A stretch of DNA of 64,000 nucleotides, taken from positions 1,364,001 through 1,428,000 of the forward strand of contig NZ_CP043427.1 in the NCBI RefSeq assembly GCF_008245005.1, given 5' to 3'. Each line of letters begins with the position of its first letter. Position 1 is the stretch's first letter. The translations under genes were made by a program, and so were the position numbers. This DNA is from Campylobacter sputorum subsp. sputorum (lineage in GTDB: Bacteria > Campylobacterota > Campylobacteria > Campylobacterales > Campylobacteraceae). Below are positions 7,553 to 50,499 of the stretch, piece after piece. The notes under the pieces were generated by a model, which did no database searches, was not told where the DNA came from, and saw only the letters and a program-made list of their open reading frames with translations.

Positions 7553-7944
7553 TGCTAGATACAAAATTAATTAAATACCTATTAGTTGGAGTTTTAAACA
7601 CGATTGTTGGTTTTGGTATAATTTTTGGGCTTATGTTTTTAGGTGTAAGCCCAGAGATTTCAAATTTAAGTGGGTATTTGGTTGGTATAGTTTTTTTCTT
7701 ATGTGATGAATAAAGTTTTTACTTTTAAGAGCAAATCTAAAAGCAAAGTAGAGTTTATAAAATTTATAGTCTCTATGCTTATGGCTTGCACTCTAAATTT
7801 TATAACTTTAAAAATATGCTTAAATATAGGTATAAATCCATATATTTCACAGATAATTTCAGGAGGAATTTAAAACTAAGTGGATTTGTTTTAGTAAATT
7901 TTAGGTATTTATGTAAACTATTTATTTGTTTTTTTATACTTTAA
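7552..7944 (+). pseudogene. Broken GtrA-like flippase
   Basis: Begins MLDTKLIKYLLVGVLNTIVG, the typical GtrA N-terminus (small four-helix protein that flips bactoprenol-phosphate-glucose). Near 7700 a T-run causes a frameshift to a stop; another frame continues YVMNKVFTFKSKSKSKVEFI and then MACTLNFITLKICLNIG. A second shift near 7870 ends that frame, and the third frame reads LSGFVLVNFRYL, the normal GtrA tail. Two lesions, so not functional as written. Its remnant 3' end overlaps the convergent glycosyltransferase gene. Confidence 0.8.
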
Positions 7945-8679
7945 AAAGCCATTTAAAGCATAATTTAAAAAATAATATGTGCTTGTTAATAAATTTAATT
8001 TTTCAAATTTCCTATAAATTTTCCATTGACAAATAGCCATATGAAACTTATTAGAAGAAAGTGATTTATTATATAATCTATAAGATGCTGTTATATCTAA
8101 CAAACCATTAGTATTATTTACTAATTTTAATATCTTTAACCAAGTAGCATAATCTTCTCTTTTATGAGCATCTAATGGCATATAAATTTTACTAAGTTTT
8201 TTAGTATCATATATAGCTGTTGAGCAGCCTATATCGCAAGTTTTAAGTATAGAATTGTAAGAAATTTTAGGCTTTATTGTAAACTTACCCAAATACTCAC
8301 CTTTTTCATCTATAAGGTTATAAGATGAGTAGGTAAAAACCAAATTATTATCTTGCATAAATTTTACTTGAGCTTCTAATTTATTTGATAACCATAAATC
8401 ATCGGCATCTAAAAAAGCTATGTATCTACCTTTTGCGGCTTTTATCCCTTTATTTCTAGCAATAGCCGAACCAGAATTCTTTTCTAATTTTATAAATTTT
8501 ATTTTATTATATTTTTTTATATATTCTTCTATAATCTTATTCGAATTATCTGGCGAACAATCGTCTATTATGATAAGTTCGTAATTATCATAAGTCTGAA
8601 ACAAAACTGATTTTATAGCCTCTTCTATGAATTTTTCCGAACCATAAGATGGCATAATTACTGAAACCAAATCATTCAC
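7918..8679 (-). CDS. Family 2 glycosyltransferase
   Basis: GT-A fold glycosyltransferase of 253 residues. The nucleotide-sugar fold opens with VSVIMPSYGSEKFIEEAI; ELIIIDDCSPDNS follows near residue 35; the metal-binding DADD is at 91-94 in YIAFLDADDLWL; EDYATWLKIL resembles the acceptor-side ED motif. It most resembles small LPS/capsule GT2 enzymes; donor and acceptor cannot be named. Its start overlaps the preceding glycosyltransferase by 8 bases, so it ends a four-gene minus-strand operon (wzx, GT4, GT, GT2). Confidence 0.85.
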   Translation of the reverse strand: MNDLVSVIMPSYGSEKFIEEAIKSVLFQTYDNYELIIIDDCSPDNSNKIIEEYIKKYNKIKFIKLEKNSGSAIARNKGIKAAKGRYIAFLDADDLWLSNKLEAQVKFMQDNNLVFTYSSYNLIDEKGEYLGKFTIKPKISYNSILKTCDIGCSTAIYDTKKLSKIYMPLDAHKREDYATWLKILKLVNNTNGLLDITASYRLYNKSLSSNKFHMAICQWKIYRKFEKLNLLTSTYYFLNYALNGFLKYKKTNK

Positions 8680-9469
8680 TGTCCAACTCCAAAAAATATT
8701 TTCTGCCTTTTAACATATGTTTTAAAGCTTCAAAAAATCCAATATTTTCTTTTGAATATAACTTATATTTGCGAATAGAAAATTGCAGTATTAACAAAAA
8801 AGAGTATTTTTTACTCATTCTAGTAAAAATAGCTCCGCGATTAAACAAAAAATCTCTATTATAACCATTAAACCAAGTTGATGGGCGAAAATCTGTTTTT
8901 ATTCCTAAAACTTCATCACTTCCATATATATTAGCTTTTTTATCTAAACATTCAAATAAAAGTATATTTTCCTCTCCACTTCCAAATCTGCTTCCGCTTC
9001 CAAATCTTTCATCAAATTTAATATTATTGTTCATTAAAAAATTAGTTTTAAAAGTTATTTGTGGAGTAAAAATTTTAAATGAATTAAGATAGTTTAATTT
9101 TCCGTTTAATTTTTTTAATAAATTACCTCTTTTTACGCTAAAACAAATACCGTCCAAATATTTAAATTTTGTATAAGCATTAACTATTTTCTGCTTATAG
9201 TTATCACAAAAAACAAAGTTATCATCTGCAAAATAAACTATATCAGAATCTTTAATATATTCAAAACCCAAATTTCTACTTTTGCTAAGACCTTTTTTAT
9301 TAACAGAAATAATTTTTATGTTAAAATCATCAAATTTATATTTTTCCTTTTTATCATAATTTGTTTGATTTATAATAATGCAATCAGTTTGTAAATTCAT
9401 TCTCTTTACTAATTCTTTGTAATCTTTTAAATTAATTGTAGAAATCACAACAATGATTTTAAAATGCAT
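8672..9469 (-). CDS. Family 2-like glycosyltransferase
   Basis: 265 residues if started at MHFKIIVVISTIN, which has GTGGGG about 7 bases upstream; an ATG at 9490 would add seven residues but has no ribosome site. GT-A features: GLSKSRNLGFEYIKDSD, then DIVYFADDNFVF with a DDN in place of DXD, and a GSGEENILLFECL segment typical of the acceptor side. The unusual repeat SGSRFGSG precedes it. It probably extends the same surface glycan as its neighbours. An 87-base AT-rich gap separates it from the GT4 gene upstream. Confidence 0.75.
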   Translation of the reverse strand: MHFKIIVVISTINLKDYKELVKRMNLQTDCIIINQTNYDKKEKYKFDDFNIKIISVNKKGLSKSRNLGFEYIKDSDIVYFADDNFVFCDNYKQKIVNAYTKFKYLDGICFSVKRGNLLKKLNGKLNYLNSFKIFTPQITFKTNFLMNNNIKFDERFGSGSRFGSGEENILLFECLDKKANIYGSDEVLGIKTDFRPSTWFNGYNRDFLFNRGAIFTRMSKKYSFLLILQFSIRKYKLYSKENIGFFEALKHMLKGRKYFLELDSE

Positions 9470-9577
9470 ATTTTTACCCCACTTTTTCATAAATTTTATA
9501 ATTATTTAAAATACTTCATAATTTGAATGTATTTTTAACATTATAAATTGTAACAATTATAAAAACATTGTAATTGT

Positions 9578-10666
9578 TCATTTTATCAACTCCAAATATA
9601 AATCTTGCAATCTTTTAGACTCAATGTCTATATCAAAACCTTGCTGCTTTATCTTTTCAACCGAATTCTCATATCTTTTAAATTTAGTTGTTTTATATGA
9701 AAATAATATTTTTTTAGCCCAAAATTTAGAATCGTAATTAAGCGATACAAACTCAAAACTATCTAAAATTTTAACCTCTCGTGAAACTTTATCACTTACA
9801 AAGCATTTTAAACCGTTTGTTTGAGCCTCTACTAAGACAACTGGAAAACCCTCAAAAAAGCTTGTAAGTAAAAAACAATCCATCGCACTATAATAAATTT
9901 CTGGATTTACAACATTTCCTACAAAACTTATATTCTGTATTAAATTTAACTCTTTTGCTTGTTTTTCTAAATCTTGTCTTAAAATTCCATCTCCTACTAA
10001 AAGCAAATGCGAATTTTGAATATAGTGATTTATACAATTAAAGACTTGAAGAAGAAATTTATGATTTTTTTGCTCTTCAAATCTAGCTACACATCCAAAT
10101 ACAATCATGCCGTCTAAATTTAGTTTTTTACTAATTTCATATTTTTCTTTGGCATTAAAAATAAATTTATTTATATTTATGGCGTTTTTTACATAAGTAA
10201 AGTCCTTATTTGCAAACATATCTCTGCCAGCTGCTTTACCACATGCTATATAAGTAGTTGCAAGATGATTAGTGGTATATATATTTATTTTATTTTTTAT
10301 TGTTTTATATTTATTTTCCATGAAAAGATGTGAATGAATTACTCTAACTTTTACACGACACAAAAAAGCAGCTAAAAATATAAATAAATTTGAAACATTA
10401 GAGTGAATAATATCTATATTAAGTCTTTTAAAAATTTCTATAAATGTAAAAAATGTCTTGATTTTATTTTTAAACACATCAACTACAATTATCTCTATAC
10501 CATTTTTATCTAGCCACCCATAAGGTATATCCTTGGAGTTACTTGATGTTAAAAAAGTGATACTAAATTTAGTTTTATCAAATCTTTCATAATAATTCAT
10601 CATAACACTTTCTACTCCTCCTGTATTCATAAGACCTATAACGCATAAAATATTGATTTTTTTCAT
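9578..10666 (-). CDS. Family 4 glycosyltransferase (EpsF-like)
   Basis: GT-B fold retaining glycosyltransferase of 362 residues. The N-terminal half has ILCVIGLMNTGGVESVMMNY (glycine loop) and DIIHSNVSN; the C-terminal half has VFGCVARFEEQKNH, LLVGDGILRQDLE and the E-x7-E motif EGFPVVLVE at 272-280 that contacts the nucleotide sugar. Closest in style to capsule/EPS enzymes of the EpsF group. The start overlaps the wzx stop by 4 bases, so the two are coupled. Confidence 0.87.
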   Translation of the reverse strand: MKKINILCVIGLMNTGGVESVMMNYYERFDKTKFSITFLTSSNSKDIPYGWLDKNGIEIIVVDVFKNKIKTFFTFIEIFKRLNIDIIHSNVSNLFIFLAAFLCRVKVRVIHSHLFMENKYKTIKNKINIYTTNHLATTYIACGKAAGRDMFANKDFTYVKNAININKFIFNAKEKYEISKKLNLDGMIVFGCVARFEEQKNHKFLLQVFNCINHYIQNSHLLLVGDGILRQDLEKQAKELNLIQNISFVGNVVNPEIYYSAMDCFLLTSFFEGFPVVLVEAQTNGLKCFVSDKVSREVKILDSFEFVSLNYDSKFWAKKILFSYKTTKFKRYENSVEKIKQQGFDIDIESKRLQDLYLELIK

Positions 10667-12057
10667 AAAACTCTCTTTTTATTTTTTAGTATATCTTTAT
10701 AAACATAAGCATAAAAAAGCACTAAGAAAAAGAAATTTATAGCTATAAAAACTAAATTTGAAACATAGCACGCATAAGAAGTAATTATAAATATTAAAAT
10801 ATATAAAATGTTTATAAATCTTATTTTTATTATAAATTCTTTTTTAATCAAAATTATAAGCATTGCACAAGCAACTATATATTCTAAAATAAATGCAAAA
10901 ATAATAGCAAAAATGCCTATTTTTTCTACCATAAAAGTCACAAAAATTATATTTATAAATAAATAAATAAAGCTTATTTTAGGTAGATATTTATTATAAT
11001 TAATCTTATTTATAATATTTGATATAAACTCATAAACCCCAACACAAATACAAACCATCAAACAAGCTGGGATATAGATAAAAGCCTCATAATAGCTACT
11101 ATTTACTATAAATGGAAATATAATTTTAATTGCAATTATTAAAAAACTAGAACCAAATAATAAAAATTTAATATACTCATTAATAGCTTTTGTATAATAC
11201 TTGCCCATTAAATTTTGATCTAAAATTTTTGAGAAATTTACTTCTTGCCAAGCCATTTTAAAACAATTTATCAAAAGCATTAAAAGCATAGAAAATTTTA
11301 AAGCAATAGCATAATATCCATTTTCTGTTAGGCCTATACTTTTATAAATACAAAATTTACCATAAAACTCAGCAAACCAGTAGCTAAATGCAAGAGAAAT
11401 CAAAGGAATAGAGTAATAAAACATCGGTTTTACAAAGGTAAAATCCCCAAAACCAATCCTTAACTTTAAAAAAACTTTTACATTTATTTCCATCATTAAA
11501 ATAGCAAAAATAATACTTATGATAGAAGCGTATATTAAAGAAATATAGCCTAATTTAAAATGTATTAAAAAAATTAAATTTAAAATAACCCCAATTATAG
11601 TAGACAATACTCCGCTAAATACAAATATGTAATTTAATCCATAAGCTCTACAAATATAACTATATATAGTATGAATATACATTATAATCCCTAATATAAT
11701 GAGCGAATTCATAAATTTAACATTTAAAATATTTAAAAACATATAAAAGCTAAATATATAAAAAATTAAACAAATCAAAAAAACAATAAACCCAGCAAAT
11801 AAAACTTTTTCTTTGTAATTTTTTATATTTTTATAGCTATCATCAAGCAAAAATTTCATAACTGCTATATAAATATCTATAAAACATATACCTATAAAAA
11901 GATTTACATAAACCAAGCTTAAATCATACTCACCGTAATCACTAGGACTTAGATATTTAGTATACAAAGGAAGCATAAAAAAAGCTATGAGTTTATTTAA
12001 AATACTTCCAAAAAAATAAATCGAACTTGATTTTATAAATTTTGTTAAATCTGACAA
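10663..12057 (-). CDS. Wzx-type polysaccharide flippase
   Basis: 464 residues with about 12-14 hydrophobic helices and few charged residues. It begins SDLTKFIKSSSIYFFGSILN followed by MLPLYTKYLSPSDYGEYDL, the family signature of polysaccharide biosynthesis (MOP superfamily) flippases. It would move a finished lipid-linked oligosaccharide across the inner membrane. First gene of the minus-strand glycan operon. No Wzy polymerase or ligase is seen in the window, so the final polymer type is unknown. Confidence 0.85.
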   Translation of the reverse strand: MSDLTKFIKSSSIYFFGSILNKLIAFFMLPLYTKYLSPSDYGEYDLSLVYVNLFIGICFIDIYIAVMKFLLDDSYKNIKNYKEKVLFAGFIVFLICLIFYIFSFYMFLNILNVKFMNSLIILGIIMYIHTIYSYICRAYGLNYIFVFSGVLSTIIGVILNLIFLIHFKLGYISLIYASIISIIFAILMMEINVKVFLKLRIGFGDFTFVKPMFYYSIPLISLAFSYWFAEFYGKFCIYKSIGLTENGYYAIALKFSMLLMLLINCFKMAWQEVNFSKILDQNLMGKYYTKAINEYIKFLLFGSSFLIIAIKIIFPFIVNSSYYEAFIYIPACLMVCICVGVYEFISNIINKINYNKYLPKISFIYLFINIIFVTFMVEKIGIFAIIFAFILEYIVACAMLIILIKKEFIIKIRFINILYILIFIITSYACYVSNLVFIAINFFFLVLFYAYVYKDILKNKKRVL

Positions 12058-12322: not shown

Positions 12323-13084
12323 TTAAACACTAAAATATAATTTTTCCTCTTTTACCCCCCCCCCGTAAGATAAATCTAAAACATTTTTTAAAGTATTTAT
12401 TGTATATGGCGAAGTTATAAAAAAATCGCCTATTTGCAAATCACGATTTATCTGATTTCTATTGCCTATGAAAAATACAATGACAAAATTCTTTTTCTTT
12501 TTATTTTCTTGCAAACTTTGATACATTTCATCGCTAATGCCGTTATAATCATCAATATAAATAAAAACTATAGCAGGTAAATATATCCTACTTTTTATAT
12601 GTTCGTTTAAAATTTCCCAATTCTCACAAGGCTTAATATCCATATGAAATTTTTCTACTTGTTTTATGATAATATTTTTTAATGTTAAATTATTACATAA
12701 CAATACAGAGCTTAAATTTTTAAATTTATCACTATAAGTTTTATTTGTATCATCATCGTTATATCCTAGTTTTAAAAACCCATTAAAACATATACTAAAA
12801 TTATTTACATTTTCACATTTAACACTCCAGCCTAGCTGATCTATATATTTATTCATTTCATAAATAAATTTAAATCTACCAATGTTTAGCATATTTTTTT
12901 TGTGAATAATAAATTTTAATTTTTCATACAAATCAATATCTAAAATAGAATTTGAAGATATCTTTAACTCAAAATTTACAGCACTAGCTCCTTGACTTAT
13001 AGGAAAAAACTCTACAATTATTGTATTTTCTTTAAATTCTTGTAAAAAAACTTTATACAAGATACAAGAGATTGTATAAAACAT
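12323..13084 (-). CDS. C-terminal half of a frameshifted membrane protein: degenerate HATPase plus degenerate receiver
   Basis: Not recognised as a named gene. Read through from the frame upstream, the region aligns by eye with a histidine-kinase ATPase domain that has lost its motifs: QSLVSCIKFF stands where LLSNAIKFT (N box) is expected, and NIGRFKFIYEMNKYIDQLGW where the GLGL...LMGG stretch is expected, with the G boxes gone. From about residue 130 a receiver-like fold follows (VLLCNNLTLKNIII, AIVFIYIDDYNG, FFITSPYTINTLKNV) in which the acidic pocket, the phospho-Asp and the conserved Lys (TSP for TKP) are missing. The 3' end holds a G10 tract. The ATG at 13084 is probably not a real start; the gene likely continues from the 13515 start after a one-base shift at the A7 tract 13044-13050. 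Confidence 0.6.
   Translation of the reverse strand: MFYTISCILYKVFLQEFKENTIIVEFFPISQGASAVNFELKISSNSILDIDLYEKLKFIIHKKNMLNIGRFKFIYEMNKYIDQLGWSVKCENVNNFSICFNGFLKLGYNDDDTNKTYSDKFKNLSSVLLCNNLTLKNIIIKQVEKFHMDIKPCENWEILNEHIKSRIYLPAIVFIYIDDYNGISDEMYQSLQENKKKKNFVIVFFIGNRNQINRDLQIGDFFITSPYTINTLKNVLDLSYGGGVKEEKLYFSV
12355..12364 (-). repeat. G10 homopolymer, candidate phase-variation tract
   Basis: Ten consecutive C on the plus strand (G10 in the gene), the only G/C run of this length in the window. It encodes GGG before the last residues VKEEKLYFSV. At 9 G the protein would end directly after GGG; at 11 G it would end in KRGKIIF. Poly-G tracts of 8 or more vary in length at high frequency in Campylobacter contingency genes. 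Here the change would affect only the tail. Confidence 0.75.
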
Positions 13085-13515
13085 TGTGAATTAACATTGT
13101 ATTTTTTATCAAGACTATCATCAAAATCAAAGATTACAACAGATCTGTTTTTAAAAGAACAATCAAAAATAGCCCTAGAAGCGTGACTTAATCTTGAGAA
13201 TATATTTATGTTTGATACTGTTTTATTTATGGCATATTTTCTTTGTTGAAAATTTAAATTAAAAATATTTTCATTATTAGATGCTAAAAAATTCTCATTT
13301 TTTATGCTGGAATTTGTTTTATTTTCTGCTTTAATATCATTTATTTTTTTAAATTCATTTTTTAAAAATTTAACCATAAATACAAGGACAATGAAGCAAA
13401 ATGTCATAAAAACTAGATAAAAAATATCTATATAATTATCTACAATTTGCAAAGATACATTTTCTTCGCTAAAAAGCATAACAAAACTTGTAAATAATAC
13501 AAACACATAACGCAT
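13018..13515 (-). CDS. N-terminal half of the same frameshifted membrane protein
   Basis: Starts at MRYVFVLFTSFVMLF, with AGGAG 8 bases upstream; an ATG ten codons earlier has no ribosome site and overlaps queA. It has a signal-peptide-like first helix, a short periplasmic stretch, a strong membrane helix (IFYLVFMTFCFIVLVFMV), a charged linker, and then a segment FSRLSHASRAIF...NRSVVIFDFDDSLDKK that matches the stretch just before the N box in hybrid sensor kinases. The frame ends at 13018. One extra base in the T7 run (A7 on the plus strand, 13044-13050) would join CIKFF to LQEFKENTIIVEFF of the next frame. No histidine phospho-acceptor (DHp) helix is convincing. It sits 11 bases after queA on the same strand. 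Confidence 0.6.
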   Translation of the reverse strand: MRYVFVLFTSFVMLFSEENVSLQIVDNYIDIFYLVFMTFCFIVLVFMVKFLKNEFKKINDIKAENKTNSSIKNENFLASNNENIFNLNFQQRKYAINKTVSNINIFSRLSHASRAIFDCSFKNRSVVIFDFDDSLDKKYNVNSQCFIQSLVSCIKFFYKNLKKIQ

Positions 13516-13526
13516 CTTACTTGCTC

Positions 13527-14546
13527 CTATAAAACTAACATACAATCACCATAAGAATAAAATCTATAGTTATTTTTTATGGCTATATCATAAATTTCCA
13601 TAGTTTTTTCAAACCCTATAAAACTACAAACCAGCATTATAAGAGTTGATTTTGGAAGGTGGAAATTTGTAAGAAGATAATCTTGTCTAATTGGTTTATT
13701 AAAAGGATTTAAAAATAACTCACAAACCCCACTACTCCTACCATTTCTAGCAAAATCCTCAATCACCCTAGTAACAGTTGTTCCAATGCCTAAAATTTTA
13801 TCCGTTGAGTTTATCAAATTTATAGTATTTTGCGGAAGATGATACCACTCTTCGTGCATTTTATGTTTTGTTATATCCTCGCTTTCTATACCCTTAAAAG
13901 TTCCTGCTCCAACATGTAAAGTAAGTGTGTAAATATCGTAGTTTATTTTAAGCTTATCAACAAGCTCACTACTAAAATGCAAAGATGCAGTTGGAGCCGC
14001 AACAGCACCTTGGTATTTTGCAAAAATACTTTGATACCAAATTTCGTCATTTTTATTATCATCTCTTTTGATGTATGGAGGGATAGGCACATGCCCTATA
14101 CAATCCATCTCATTAAAAACTTCAGTTGTATTTAATTTTTTATCTTTCAAATAAAACTCAACTTCTCTCAAACCATCATCAAAAAGTGATTTAACTATAA
14201 ATTTAAAGCTATCGCTTAATGCAATCTCACTACCAACTTTTACCCTACCTTTGATATACGCACCAAAATTTCCATTTATAAGCGGTGCATTAAGAAGTAT
14301 TTCTACTTTTCCGCCGCTACTTTTTACACCATAAGCCCTTGCTTTTACAACCTTTGTATCATTAAAAACAATAGAACACTCTGGCAAAATTTCTGGCAAA
14401 TCCTTTACATGTTTATGCAAAATAGTGTCTTTTTTTCTATCATAAACAAGCATTTTCGCATTTTCTCTTGGTAAAACTGGCTCTTTTGCTATAAACTCTT
14501 GTGGCAAAAAATAATCATAACTAGATGTTTTTAATAAATCAATCAT
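13527..14546 (-). CDS. queA: S-adenosylmethionine:tRNA ribosyltransferase-isomerase
   Basis: Penultimate enzyme of queuosine synthesis; moves the ribosyl part of SAM onto preQ1 at the tRNA wobble base. 339 residues, full length. Family landmarks: YDYFLPQEFIAKEPVLPREN at the start, VFNDTKVVKARAYG, GAVAAPTASLHFS, LTLHVGAGTFKGI and YLLTNFHLPKSTLIML. The start overlaps tatC by 8 bases; tatB-tatC-queA form an operon, the same order as in C. jejuni (recollection). Confidence 0.96.
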   Translation of the reverse strand: MIDLLKTSSYDYFLPQEFIAKEPVLPRENAKMLVYDRKKDTILHKHVKDLPEILPECSIVFNDTKVVKARAYGVKSSGGKVEILLNAPLINGNFGAYIKGRVKVGSEIALSDSFKFIVKSLFDDGLREVEFYLKDKKLNTTEVFNEMDCIGHVPIPPYIKRDDNKNDEIWYQSIFAKYQGAVAAPTASLHFSSELVDKLKINYDIYTLTLHVGAGTFKGIESEDITKHKMHEEWYHLPQNTINLINSTDKILGIGTTVTRVIEDFARNGRSSGVCELFLNPFNKPIRQDYLLTNFHLPKSTLIMLVCSFIGFEKTMEIYDIAIKNNYRFYSYGDCMLVL

Positions 14547-48192: not shown

Positions 48193-50499
48193 CTACTCCA
48201 TATTTAAGTTTTTTCTAACAACATTTTCTAAATATTCAGAAGAATATGGCTTTGTTATATACTCAGTCATGCCAACCTCAACACCTCTTAGTCTATCGGT
48301 TTTACTTGTTCTTGAAGTAACAGCAATAAGAGGTAAGAATTTGTATTTAGAATATTTTCTAATCTCACCAGCAAGAGTATAACCATCCATTCTAGGCATC
48401 TCAATATCTATAAGCACAGCATCAATAACTTTTTCACTAGTCTTTATAATATTTAATGCATCAACTCCGTTTGCCGCTTCTATAATGCTAACACCAATTG
48501 GTTCAAGTGATTTTTTCATAATATTTCTATCCATCTTAGAATCATCTACTACTAAAACAACATAATCACTTGGTTTTTCTTTTTTAGAAGCTTCAGAGCT
48601 ACTTTCAATATCAGCTTTTATGTCTATTTTAATATCTTTAGCCATATCCATTATAGTTCCAACATCCACAATAAGAGTTACCTTACCATCACCTCTAATG
48701 GTTGCCCCTGCTATTCCTTTGATATTTTGTAAATAGTTACCTAAAGACTTAATAACAACCTCTTCTTGTCCTATTAAATTATCTACAATGATACCTATCT
48801 TACTCTCCACTACACCTATGACAACTACATAGGTTTGCTCTCCGCCATCAAATACTTTTTTAACATTAAATAAATCAGAAAGTCTAACAAGAGATATAAC
48901 CTCATCTCTAAGTCTTAAAACATTTTTACCCTCAATTGTATAAATATCGTCAAGAGGTACACGAACTGTTTCTAAAACACTAGCCAAAGGAAGTGCATAT
49001 GTTTCTTCTTGTGAACCAACAAGTAATGATTGAATAATCGCTAAAGTAAGAGGAATTTTTAGTTTTAAAACAGTTCCTCGCCCAAATTCACTATCTATAT
49101 CTATGATACCGTTTAATTTCTCGATGTTGGTTTTAACAACATCCATTCCAACGCCTCTTCCTGAAACATTAGTAACTTGCGCTGCTGTTGAAAATCCTGG
49201 CTTAAAGATAAGACCAAATGCTTCTTTGTTACTCATAGCATCGGCTTCTCTTTCTGTAATCAATCCTTTTTCCATACATTTTGCTTTTAATACATCAGGA
49301 TCCATTCCTTTACCATCATCGGCTATTTCTACAACTATATTATTGCCTTCGCTATAAGCTTTTAACTGAATGACACCTTTTTCTGGTTTACCAGCTGCCA
49401 AACGAGCTTCTGGGCTTTCTATACCGTGATCGCAAGAATTTCTAATTATGTGAACTAAAGGATCGCCAATAACTTCAACTATTGATTTATCAAGCTCTGT
49501 TTCTTCGCCGCTTATTTCTAAATCTATTTGTTTATTCAAATCCCTGCTTAAATCCCTTACCATTCTAGGGAATTTATTAAATACTTTTGCTATAGGAAGC
49601 ATTCTTGTTTTCATAACAGCAAGCTGAATATCAGTTGTTACTATAGAAAGTGCCGCAACTACTTGGTTTAACTCCTCTAAAAATTGCTCTCCGTCATATC
49701 TTTCACTTACATCTTCATAAATCTTAATAAGTCTATTTTTGCCTAATACAAGCTCCCCAATAAGACTCATTAGATTATCTAGTCTTTTAACTTCAACTCT
49801 AATTGTTTGTTCCATTTGAGTAGAACTACTTGCTGCTACAGCTTTTGAATCAGAGTCTTTATTCTCTGGCTTAGGAGCTGGTTTTGGCTTAGGAGCTGGA
49901 GCAGGATTATCCTTTTTCTGAGCTCTTCTAGCTTTATCTTCTTCCTTTCTAACTTTAAGAAGTCTTTCTATCTCGGCTTCAACTTCAGATTCACTAAGAG
50001 AATTTACATCCACTTCTTCTTCTGGCTCCTCTTTTGCAGGCTCTTCTACCTTTTCTTCTTCTTTTGGTTTTTCTTCCTCTTTTTTAGGAGACACTGGAGC
50101 AGAACCATCTCCACCCGAAATTTGATCCAATCTAGAGCAAACATCAGTTATATCAAGTCCTATTGCAGTATCATTTCCATTATCTCTAATAGATCCTAAA
50201 AGATTTTTCATATCATCAACTGATTCTAAAACAACATCCATAACATCTGGAGTTATTTTTAACTCGCCTCTTCTAGCTTTATTTAAAACATCCTCCATAT
50301 GATGAGTAAGTCTTGTTAATATATCAAAATTTAAAAAAGACGAACTACCTTTTACTGTATGCGCAACTCGGAAAATTCTATTTAAAAGCTCTAAATCCTC
50401 AGGATTAGCCTCAAGCTCTACAAGATCGTGATCTATTTGTTCAACTAGCTCAAATGCTTCAACGAGAAAATCTTCTAATATTTCTTGCATATCATCCAT
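48193..50499 (-). CDS. cheA: Chemotaxis histidine kinase CheA with C-terminal receiver
   Basis: 768 residues. HPt domain with phospho-His 47 in RVAHTVKGSSSF; a Pro/Glu/Lys-rich linker (140-220); dimerisation domain; ATPase domain with RNSCDHGIESP, ADDGKGMDP, GVGMDVVKTNIEKL; CheW-like domain; and a receiver at about 645-768 with phospho-Asp in DAVLIDIEMPRMDG and Lys in YITKPYS. This CheA-REC fusion is normal in Campylobacter and Helicobacter. Confidence 0.97.
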   Translation of the reverse strand: MDDMQEILEDFLVEAFELVEQIDHDLVELEANPEDLELLNRIFRVAHTVKGSSSFLNFDILTRLTHHMEDVLNKARRGELKITPDVMDVVLESVDDMKNLLGSIRDNGNDTAIGLDITDVCSRLDQISGGDGSAPVSPKKEEEKPKEEEKVEEPAKEEPEEEVDVNSLSESEVEAEIERLLKVRKEEDKARRAQKKDNPAPAPKPKPAPKPENKDSDSKAVAASSSTQMEQTIRVEVKRLDNLMSLIGELVLGKNRLIKIYEDVSERYDGEQFLEELNQVVAALSIVTTDIQLAVMKTRMLPIAKVFNKFPRMVRDLSRDLNKQIDLEISGEETELDKSIVEVIGDPLVHIIRNSCDHGIESPEARLAAGKPEKGVIQLKAYSEGNNIVVEIADDGKGMDPDVLKAKCMEKGLITEREADAMSNKEAFGLIFKPGFSTAAQVTNVSGRGVGMDVVKTNIEKLNGIIDIDSEFGRGTVLKLKIPLTLAIIQSLLVGSQEETYALPLASVLETVRVPLDDIYTIEGKNVLRLRDEVISLVRLSDLFNVKKVFDGGEQTYVVVIGVVESKIGIIVDNLIGQEEVVIKSLGNYLQNIKGIAGATIRGDGKVTLIVDVGTIMDMAKDIKIDIKADIESSSEASKKEKPSDYVVLVVDDSKMDRNIMKKSLEPIGVSIIEAANGVDALNIIKTSEKVIDAVLIDIEMPRMDGYTLAGEIRKYSKYKFLPLIAVTSRTSKTDRLRGVEVGMTEYITKPYSSEYLENVVRKNLNME

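Follow-up and report, generated by a model that had tools for sequence, protein, structure and literature searches.

A queA-linked relative of hybrid histidine kinases, split in one Campylobacter genome and ending in a poly-G tract

The broken gene that follows queA in the 64-kb stretch of DNA analysed here (the window) is, as judged from sequence comparison, a degraded hybrid histidine kinase on which constraint at the protein level persists. The explanation that was favoured, with some reserve, is that a queA-linked family derived from hybrid kinases now encodes non-catalytic binding proteins, with switching of the protein tail, or to an OFF state, by the means proposed below. The features on which the argument depends are as follows, the family profile being that of 32 intact homologues.

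13527..14546, minus strand: queA, the ORF immediately preceding the split gene, whose ATG follows after 11 bases
13018..13515, minus strand: first piece, 165 aa, with a hydrophobic start, transmembrane (TM) helix, linker and first half of a HATPase-like domain (E 3.8e-16 with the family profile)
13375..13431, minus strand: TM helix, position transferred from the sister protein, hydropathy 2.77
13040..13060, minus strand: site of frame loss, in or beside a T run
12323..13084, minus strand: second piece, 253 aa, with the second half of the HATPase-like domain and a receiver-like domain (E 6.1e-36 with the family profile)
12370..12720, minus strand: receiver-like domain (approximate), lacking the phospho-Asp and Lys, from profile-profile alignment and a motif check
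12355..12364, minus strand: G10 tract close to the gene's 3' end, from a run scan

The two minus-strand ORFs represent one gene that a frameshift has cut in two. The first, 13018-13545, encodes 175 aa from a TTG or 165 aa (13515-13018) from the ATG at 13515, which is preceded by AGGAG at 13528-13524; the second, 13084-12323, overlaps it in a different frame. In the sister genome, G001, the only other genome of the genus that was compared, a single frame of 408 aa occupies the equivalent place, and the window pieces align with its halves at 87% and 91% identity, as expected from the original prediction that one gene had been divided by a frameshift. Frame loss occurred around 13050, within or next to a T run. 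The window contains 88 A or T runs of at least 7, so a T run at the break is ordinary, and programmed frameshifting at this run is not needed because the sister gene is in one frame. With the frame lost, only truncated pieces would be made in the window's genome. The split may represent an OFF state, a young pseudogene or a sequencing error. It is possible, though doubtful, that the split alone is an error of sequencing or assembly and that the gene is intact in the strain. The location of the break in or beside a T run, the unbroken sister gene and a dN/dS near 0.3 in both pieces are all consistent with an error, but in C. jejuni frameshifts in A/T runs genuinely turn flgR ON and OFF, and flgS also varies (PMC3930126).

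When the second piece alone was used as the query, matches were found in 31 of the 153 genomes of the taxonomic family, and a 26-row profile, one row of which was the window piece, gave matches in 71. The match in one of these, G132, was a 767-aa ORF (L127) with no queA in the stretch read; it was taken for a kinase and left out of the family count, and the other 70 genomes were counted as carriers. By genome group, the gene was present in 2/2 genomes of g1, 15/16 of g2, 47/48 of g3, which includes C. showae (intact gene at L033:5001-6020), 5/14 of g4, one of g6 and none of g5, which was inferred to be the C. jejuni group. The one g2 and the one g3 genome without a match have assemblies that consist of about 160 and 320 contigs. 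At E 1e-3 no family gene was detected in the 30 g5 loci around queA, and it was found in five of the 14 g4 loci; the contigs of L160, L164 and L174 stop shortly after queA.

The neighbourhood of the gene is nearly constant. queA lay on the same strand in 89 of the 90 loci with a family gene, a count in which some loci are the same gene taken twice; in L122 no queA is in view, the contig ending 139 bases upstream of the gene. Apart from two loci scored by the window's second piece alone, the family gene overlaps queA or begins at most 12 bases after it, and tatC precedes queA wherever the locus extends that far. Since the family gene follows queA so closely, the two are probably translated together, and co-translation would be the most likely mode of expression in the proposed mechanism. 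Intact one-frame homologues, which the original prediction had called for beside queA, are present in other genomes, the distinct full-length genes being single frames, and the two halves were not found as consistently separate, unrelated genes among the family loci. The constant place behind queA, with tatC ahead of it, could also mean that Tat export or queuosine synthesis is the process on which the co-transcribed product acts. This is the least probable of the functional alternatives, because queA is found without the gene in the 30 g5 loci and in 9/14 g4 loci (a few contigs end soon after queA) and no pointer to tRNA or export was seen in the sequence.

Identity between genera is about 20%. 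The 32 family members formed one group in a 45-row tree with support of 100/100; several branches in the tree, L002 and L120 included, are long. The members scanned had no match above chance in Pfam or NCBIfam, and no chain among the PDB sequences matched the family profile beyond chance. As far as the literature and searches of Pfam, NCBIfam, PADLOC, PHROGs and PDB reach, and no further, the family is undescribed. A defence or phage origin found no support, since PADLOC and PHROGs returned chance-level matches only. Downstream of the gene, glycosyltransferase- and flippase-like ORFs were recognised by eye at 7918-12057 of the window and a Wzz-like ORF in the sister at L002:144-1064; by this inspection, the two genomes differ in the surface-polysaccharide locus that follows the gene.

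Between window and sister, the first and second pieces gave dN/dS values of 0.305 and 0.291, calculated from 13 and 10 synonymous changes, compared with 0.109 for both queA and tatC, so that the ratio for the window copy is nearly three times that of queA. For eight pairs of intact family genes the range was 0.127-0.309 versus 0.090-0.142 for queA, and the family gene had the higher value in all eight. The excess over queA is one of several observations that would be expected of a functionless relic heading for loss, others being the broken copy in the window, the fast divergence between genera and the absence of the gene from g5 and from 9/14 g4 genomes. Such decay is nevertheless improbable in view of several facts: 1) the gene has been kept in 70 of the 153 genomes, including nearly all of g3, 2) the distinct full-length genes that were read are single frames, 3) dN/dS is well below 1 and 4) certain residues are near-invariant across genera. 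Decay and a helper function in the queA operon are the weaker rivals. The missing gene in g5 and in nine g4 genomes, because of which the gene must be regarded as dispensable, also counts against the explanation preferred here, as do the dN/dS excess over queA, the failure of Pfam and NCBIfam to recognise either domain in the members scanned and the lack of a 3' run in most family genes. In three of the eight pairs, dS of the family gene was less than half that of the adjacent queA (L024/L025, 0.107 versus 0.557; L025/L026, 0.052 versus 0.277; L029/L031, 0.102 versus 0.251), a difference that could reflect recombination or faulty queA frames.

The kinship with hybrid kinases emerged from profile searches. 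In 398 genomes of the order, the best match of the profile outside the family was L061 in G487 (E 1.9e-21, profile positions 68-332 of 336), a protein of 651 aa that matches HATPase_c (5e-15), Response_reg (8.5e-6), HisKA (2.6e-4) and SPOR (0.03), the last three under their cut-offs. Profile-profile alignment of the 32 members gave 99.1% with L061-type proteins (E 6.2e-19, 276 columns), 98.7% with eight SPOR-type or related hybrid kinases (4.7e-16) and 97.1% with the canonical hybrid kinase L062 (7.7e-11). The control set aligned to the same profile consisted of 127 proteins, namely four kinases and 123 mechanical ORFs of at least 150 aa taken from the window and from seven loci. Thirteen scored under 1e-5: six full-length members, which are profile rows or near-identical to one, both window pieces and five kinase entries, with L061 entered twice. 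The next score, 3.4e-4, was that of the window protein at 48193-50499, which has both HATPase_c and Response_reg matches in its frame and is inferred to be CheA-like, and the remaining 113 proteins were at 0.011 or worse. The L061 type stood apart from other kinases in the 45-row tree.

The profile and profile-profile matches, which extend through both domains, support common descent of the CA domain with kinases of the HisKA and HATPase_c type. The Pfam model PF02518 finds neither the scanned members nor the window gene, and PF00072 does not recognise the receiver-like domain in either; the homology of this domain to receivers is visible by profile-profile alignment only. The family receiver matched the inserted pseudo-receiver of tripartite kinases, cut without its first strand, at E 1.5e-7 and the true receiver of these kinases at E 5.4e-5, a lean towards the former that was given no weight because of the cut. 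The HATPase-like and receiver-like assignments made earlier for the split gene are supported by the alignment of the family profile to hybrid kinases from the HATPase through the receiver, and homology to both folds was found by sequence profiles.

Most of the catalytic residues are missing. In the alignment of the 32 members, which are distant sequences, the first N-box Asn is retained in six and the second in none, the first G-box Asp is absent from all, and the second G box is a gap in all 32; the ATP lid is gone from the family. In the receiver-like domain the Lys is found in none, the phospho-Asp in 3/32, and Asp or Glu occupies the first acidic pocket position in 16/32. The predicted loss of the N and G boxes, acidic pocket, phospho-Asp and Lys holds for the window copy and is less complete across the family. 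No member scanned had a HisKA match and nothing aligns to DHp between the TM helix and the CA-like domain, which agrees with the earlier description of a degenerate HATPase and receiver lacking DHp. The membrane anchor that had been proposed was also recovered, by transfer from the sister protein; a TM segment was seen by hydropathy in 23 of the 32 members, and the nine without one make up a single branch (100/99). Four residues of the receiver-like part are near-invariant: Pro (32/32), His (31/32), Phe (30/32) and Tyr (30/32). The distant g6 and g4 members L120, L126 and L129 have Asp at the phospho-Asp position and have lost the Lys, and were read as stages of decay within the family.

The family would thus comprise inner-membrane proteins, soluble in one branch, descended from a hybrid histidine kinase of SPOR-TM-DHp-CA-receiver architecture; SPOR, the DHp helices, the ATP lid and the catalytic motifs appear to have been discarded and the CA-like and pseudo-receiver domains kept. 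The homology and the absences are observations, while the parts lost from the ancestor and the order of their loss are a reconstruction. Because catalysis is not expected but residues are conserved, a binding protein is the simplest reading, and a putative non-catalytic binding role is the most likely one on sequence grounds. The protein may bind another protein or a small ligand, possibly through the conserved K-x-H-I-x-D before beta3 and P-Y-T after beta5 of the pseudo-receiver, and the few near-invariant residues point at a surface that can be tested. In known cases pseudo-receivers bind c-di-GMP, quinones or proteins (PMC12632262; PMC7010744); the first of these sources, a 2025 perspective, terms their working a mystery.

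One candidate role, which seems rather unlikely, is that of a two-component accessory, which would attach to a histidine kinase or response regulator in its own cell and either inhibit it or serve it as a scaffold. The domains of the family derive from such a system, potential partners exist in the host (17 matches to HATPase_c and 19 to Response_reg, of which 18 exceed the cut-off), and known pseudo-kinases, such as DivL (PMC9430884), and pseudo-receivers (PMC12632262) work in this way. On the other hand, no two-component gene lay beside the family gene in loci whose ORFs were read by eye, there is no DHp through which heterodimers could form, and the family gene does not co-occur with the host's HisKA-type hybrid kinase. 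That 1011-aa protein lies outside the window (L206:2806-5841; G000:C1:1027305-1030340) and has HATPase_c, a sub-cut-off HisKA match in which H-E-I is retained, and two stretches that match receivers weakly. A partnership with it was examined through co-occurrence and is unsupported: at a threshold of E 1e-35, with five candidates scored per genome, relatives were found in 38 of the 153 genomes and in none of g3, though 47/48 g3 genomes carry the family gene.

The preferred reading of a non-catalytic binding protein is joined by a possible switch, the G10 tract at the 3' end of the gene, which was no part of the original prediction. It is the sole G or C run of at least 7 in the window and falls inside the last 45 bases of the gene. 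The sister gene has G9. Tracts of G8 to G10 were found in the last 50 bases of 8 of the 55 distinct family genes (a set that includes the window piece and one gene cut by a contig end), and none of the 55 has a run of at least 7 elsewhere in the gene. The eight include two pairs of close relatives, and the other 47 genes have no such run at the 3' end. Reading on past the tract in each of the three frames adds 0 to 20 residues in the seven genes examined. Tracts of G8 or more number 16 in the genome of the window and 20 in the sister. Fourteen of the other tracts, seven per genome, were inspected; none was located within the 3' end of an ORF of at least 80 aa, and three lie 27, 36 and 48 bases beyond one. 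Poly-G tracts were also seen within, or a short way upstream of, ORFs that begin like chemoreceptors by eye (L188, L192 and L200 in G001, L181 in G000), which suggests that chemotaxis is phase-variable in this genus.

In an intact gene, slippage in the 3' poly-G would swap one set of C-terminal residues for another. The arrangement, a 3' homopolymer with frames that alter the tail only, is that of the C-terminal phase-variable genes of Helicobacter canadensis, in which tail switching through a 3' poly-G was described with sequencing-read data (PMC2823697). In that species the length variation within a population was seen in the reads, whereas here lengths of G8 to G10 differ between genomes. 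The recurrent poly-G tail is a possible genetic switch on a pseudokinase. The fuller proposal, a contingency-controlled pseudokinase in which a queA-coupled, mostly membrane-anchored binding module has its tail, and in the window lineage perhaps its whole expression, switched by homopolymer slippage, is put forward only tentatively.

Among known systems, the closest are the SPOR-TM-HisKA-HATPase-REC proteins L061, L068 and L069 from another family of the order, whose homology to the queA-linked family begins where the HATPase begins and runs through the whole receiver. They are degenerate as well, the DHp His, second N-box Asn and phospho-Asp having been replaced, and are likely pseudokinases themselves. 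Unlike the queA-linked family, however, they have retained SPOR, DHp, the receiver Lys and the first G box, and L061 adjoins a dGTPase-like gene rather than queA. A natural series is thereby seen, with L061, a near-complete hybrid kinase, at one end and at the other a small protein devoid of DHp and catalysis that occupies one place in many species. L061 resembles RetS (6dk8, E 6.8e-20), 7z8n (7e-28) and 6qrj (1.1e-11), the last of which is presumably ShkA. RetS-, GacS- and ShkA-like kinases with inserted pseudo-receivers have both DHp and CA, in contrast to the queA-linked family, which lacks DHp. Sequestration by RetS depends on DHp-mediated pairing with the partner kinase, and the DHp contact helices that serve it were not found in the members scanned or aligned. 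The pseudo-receiver of ShkA is a ligand site (PMC7010744). The family also resembles the pseudo-receiver (PsR) proteins in having a receiver-like domain without the Lys and mostly without the phospho-Asp, but differs from them in that this domain is fused to a dead CA domain and has diverged beyond PF00072.
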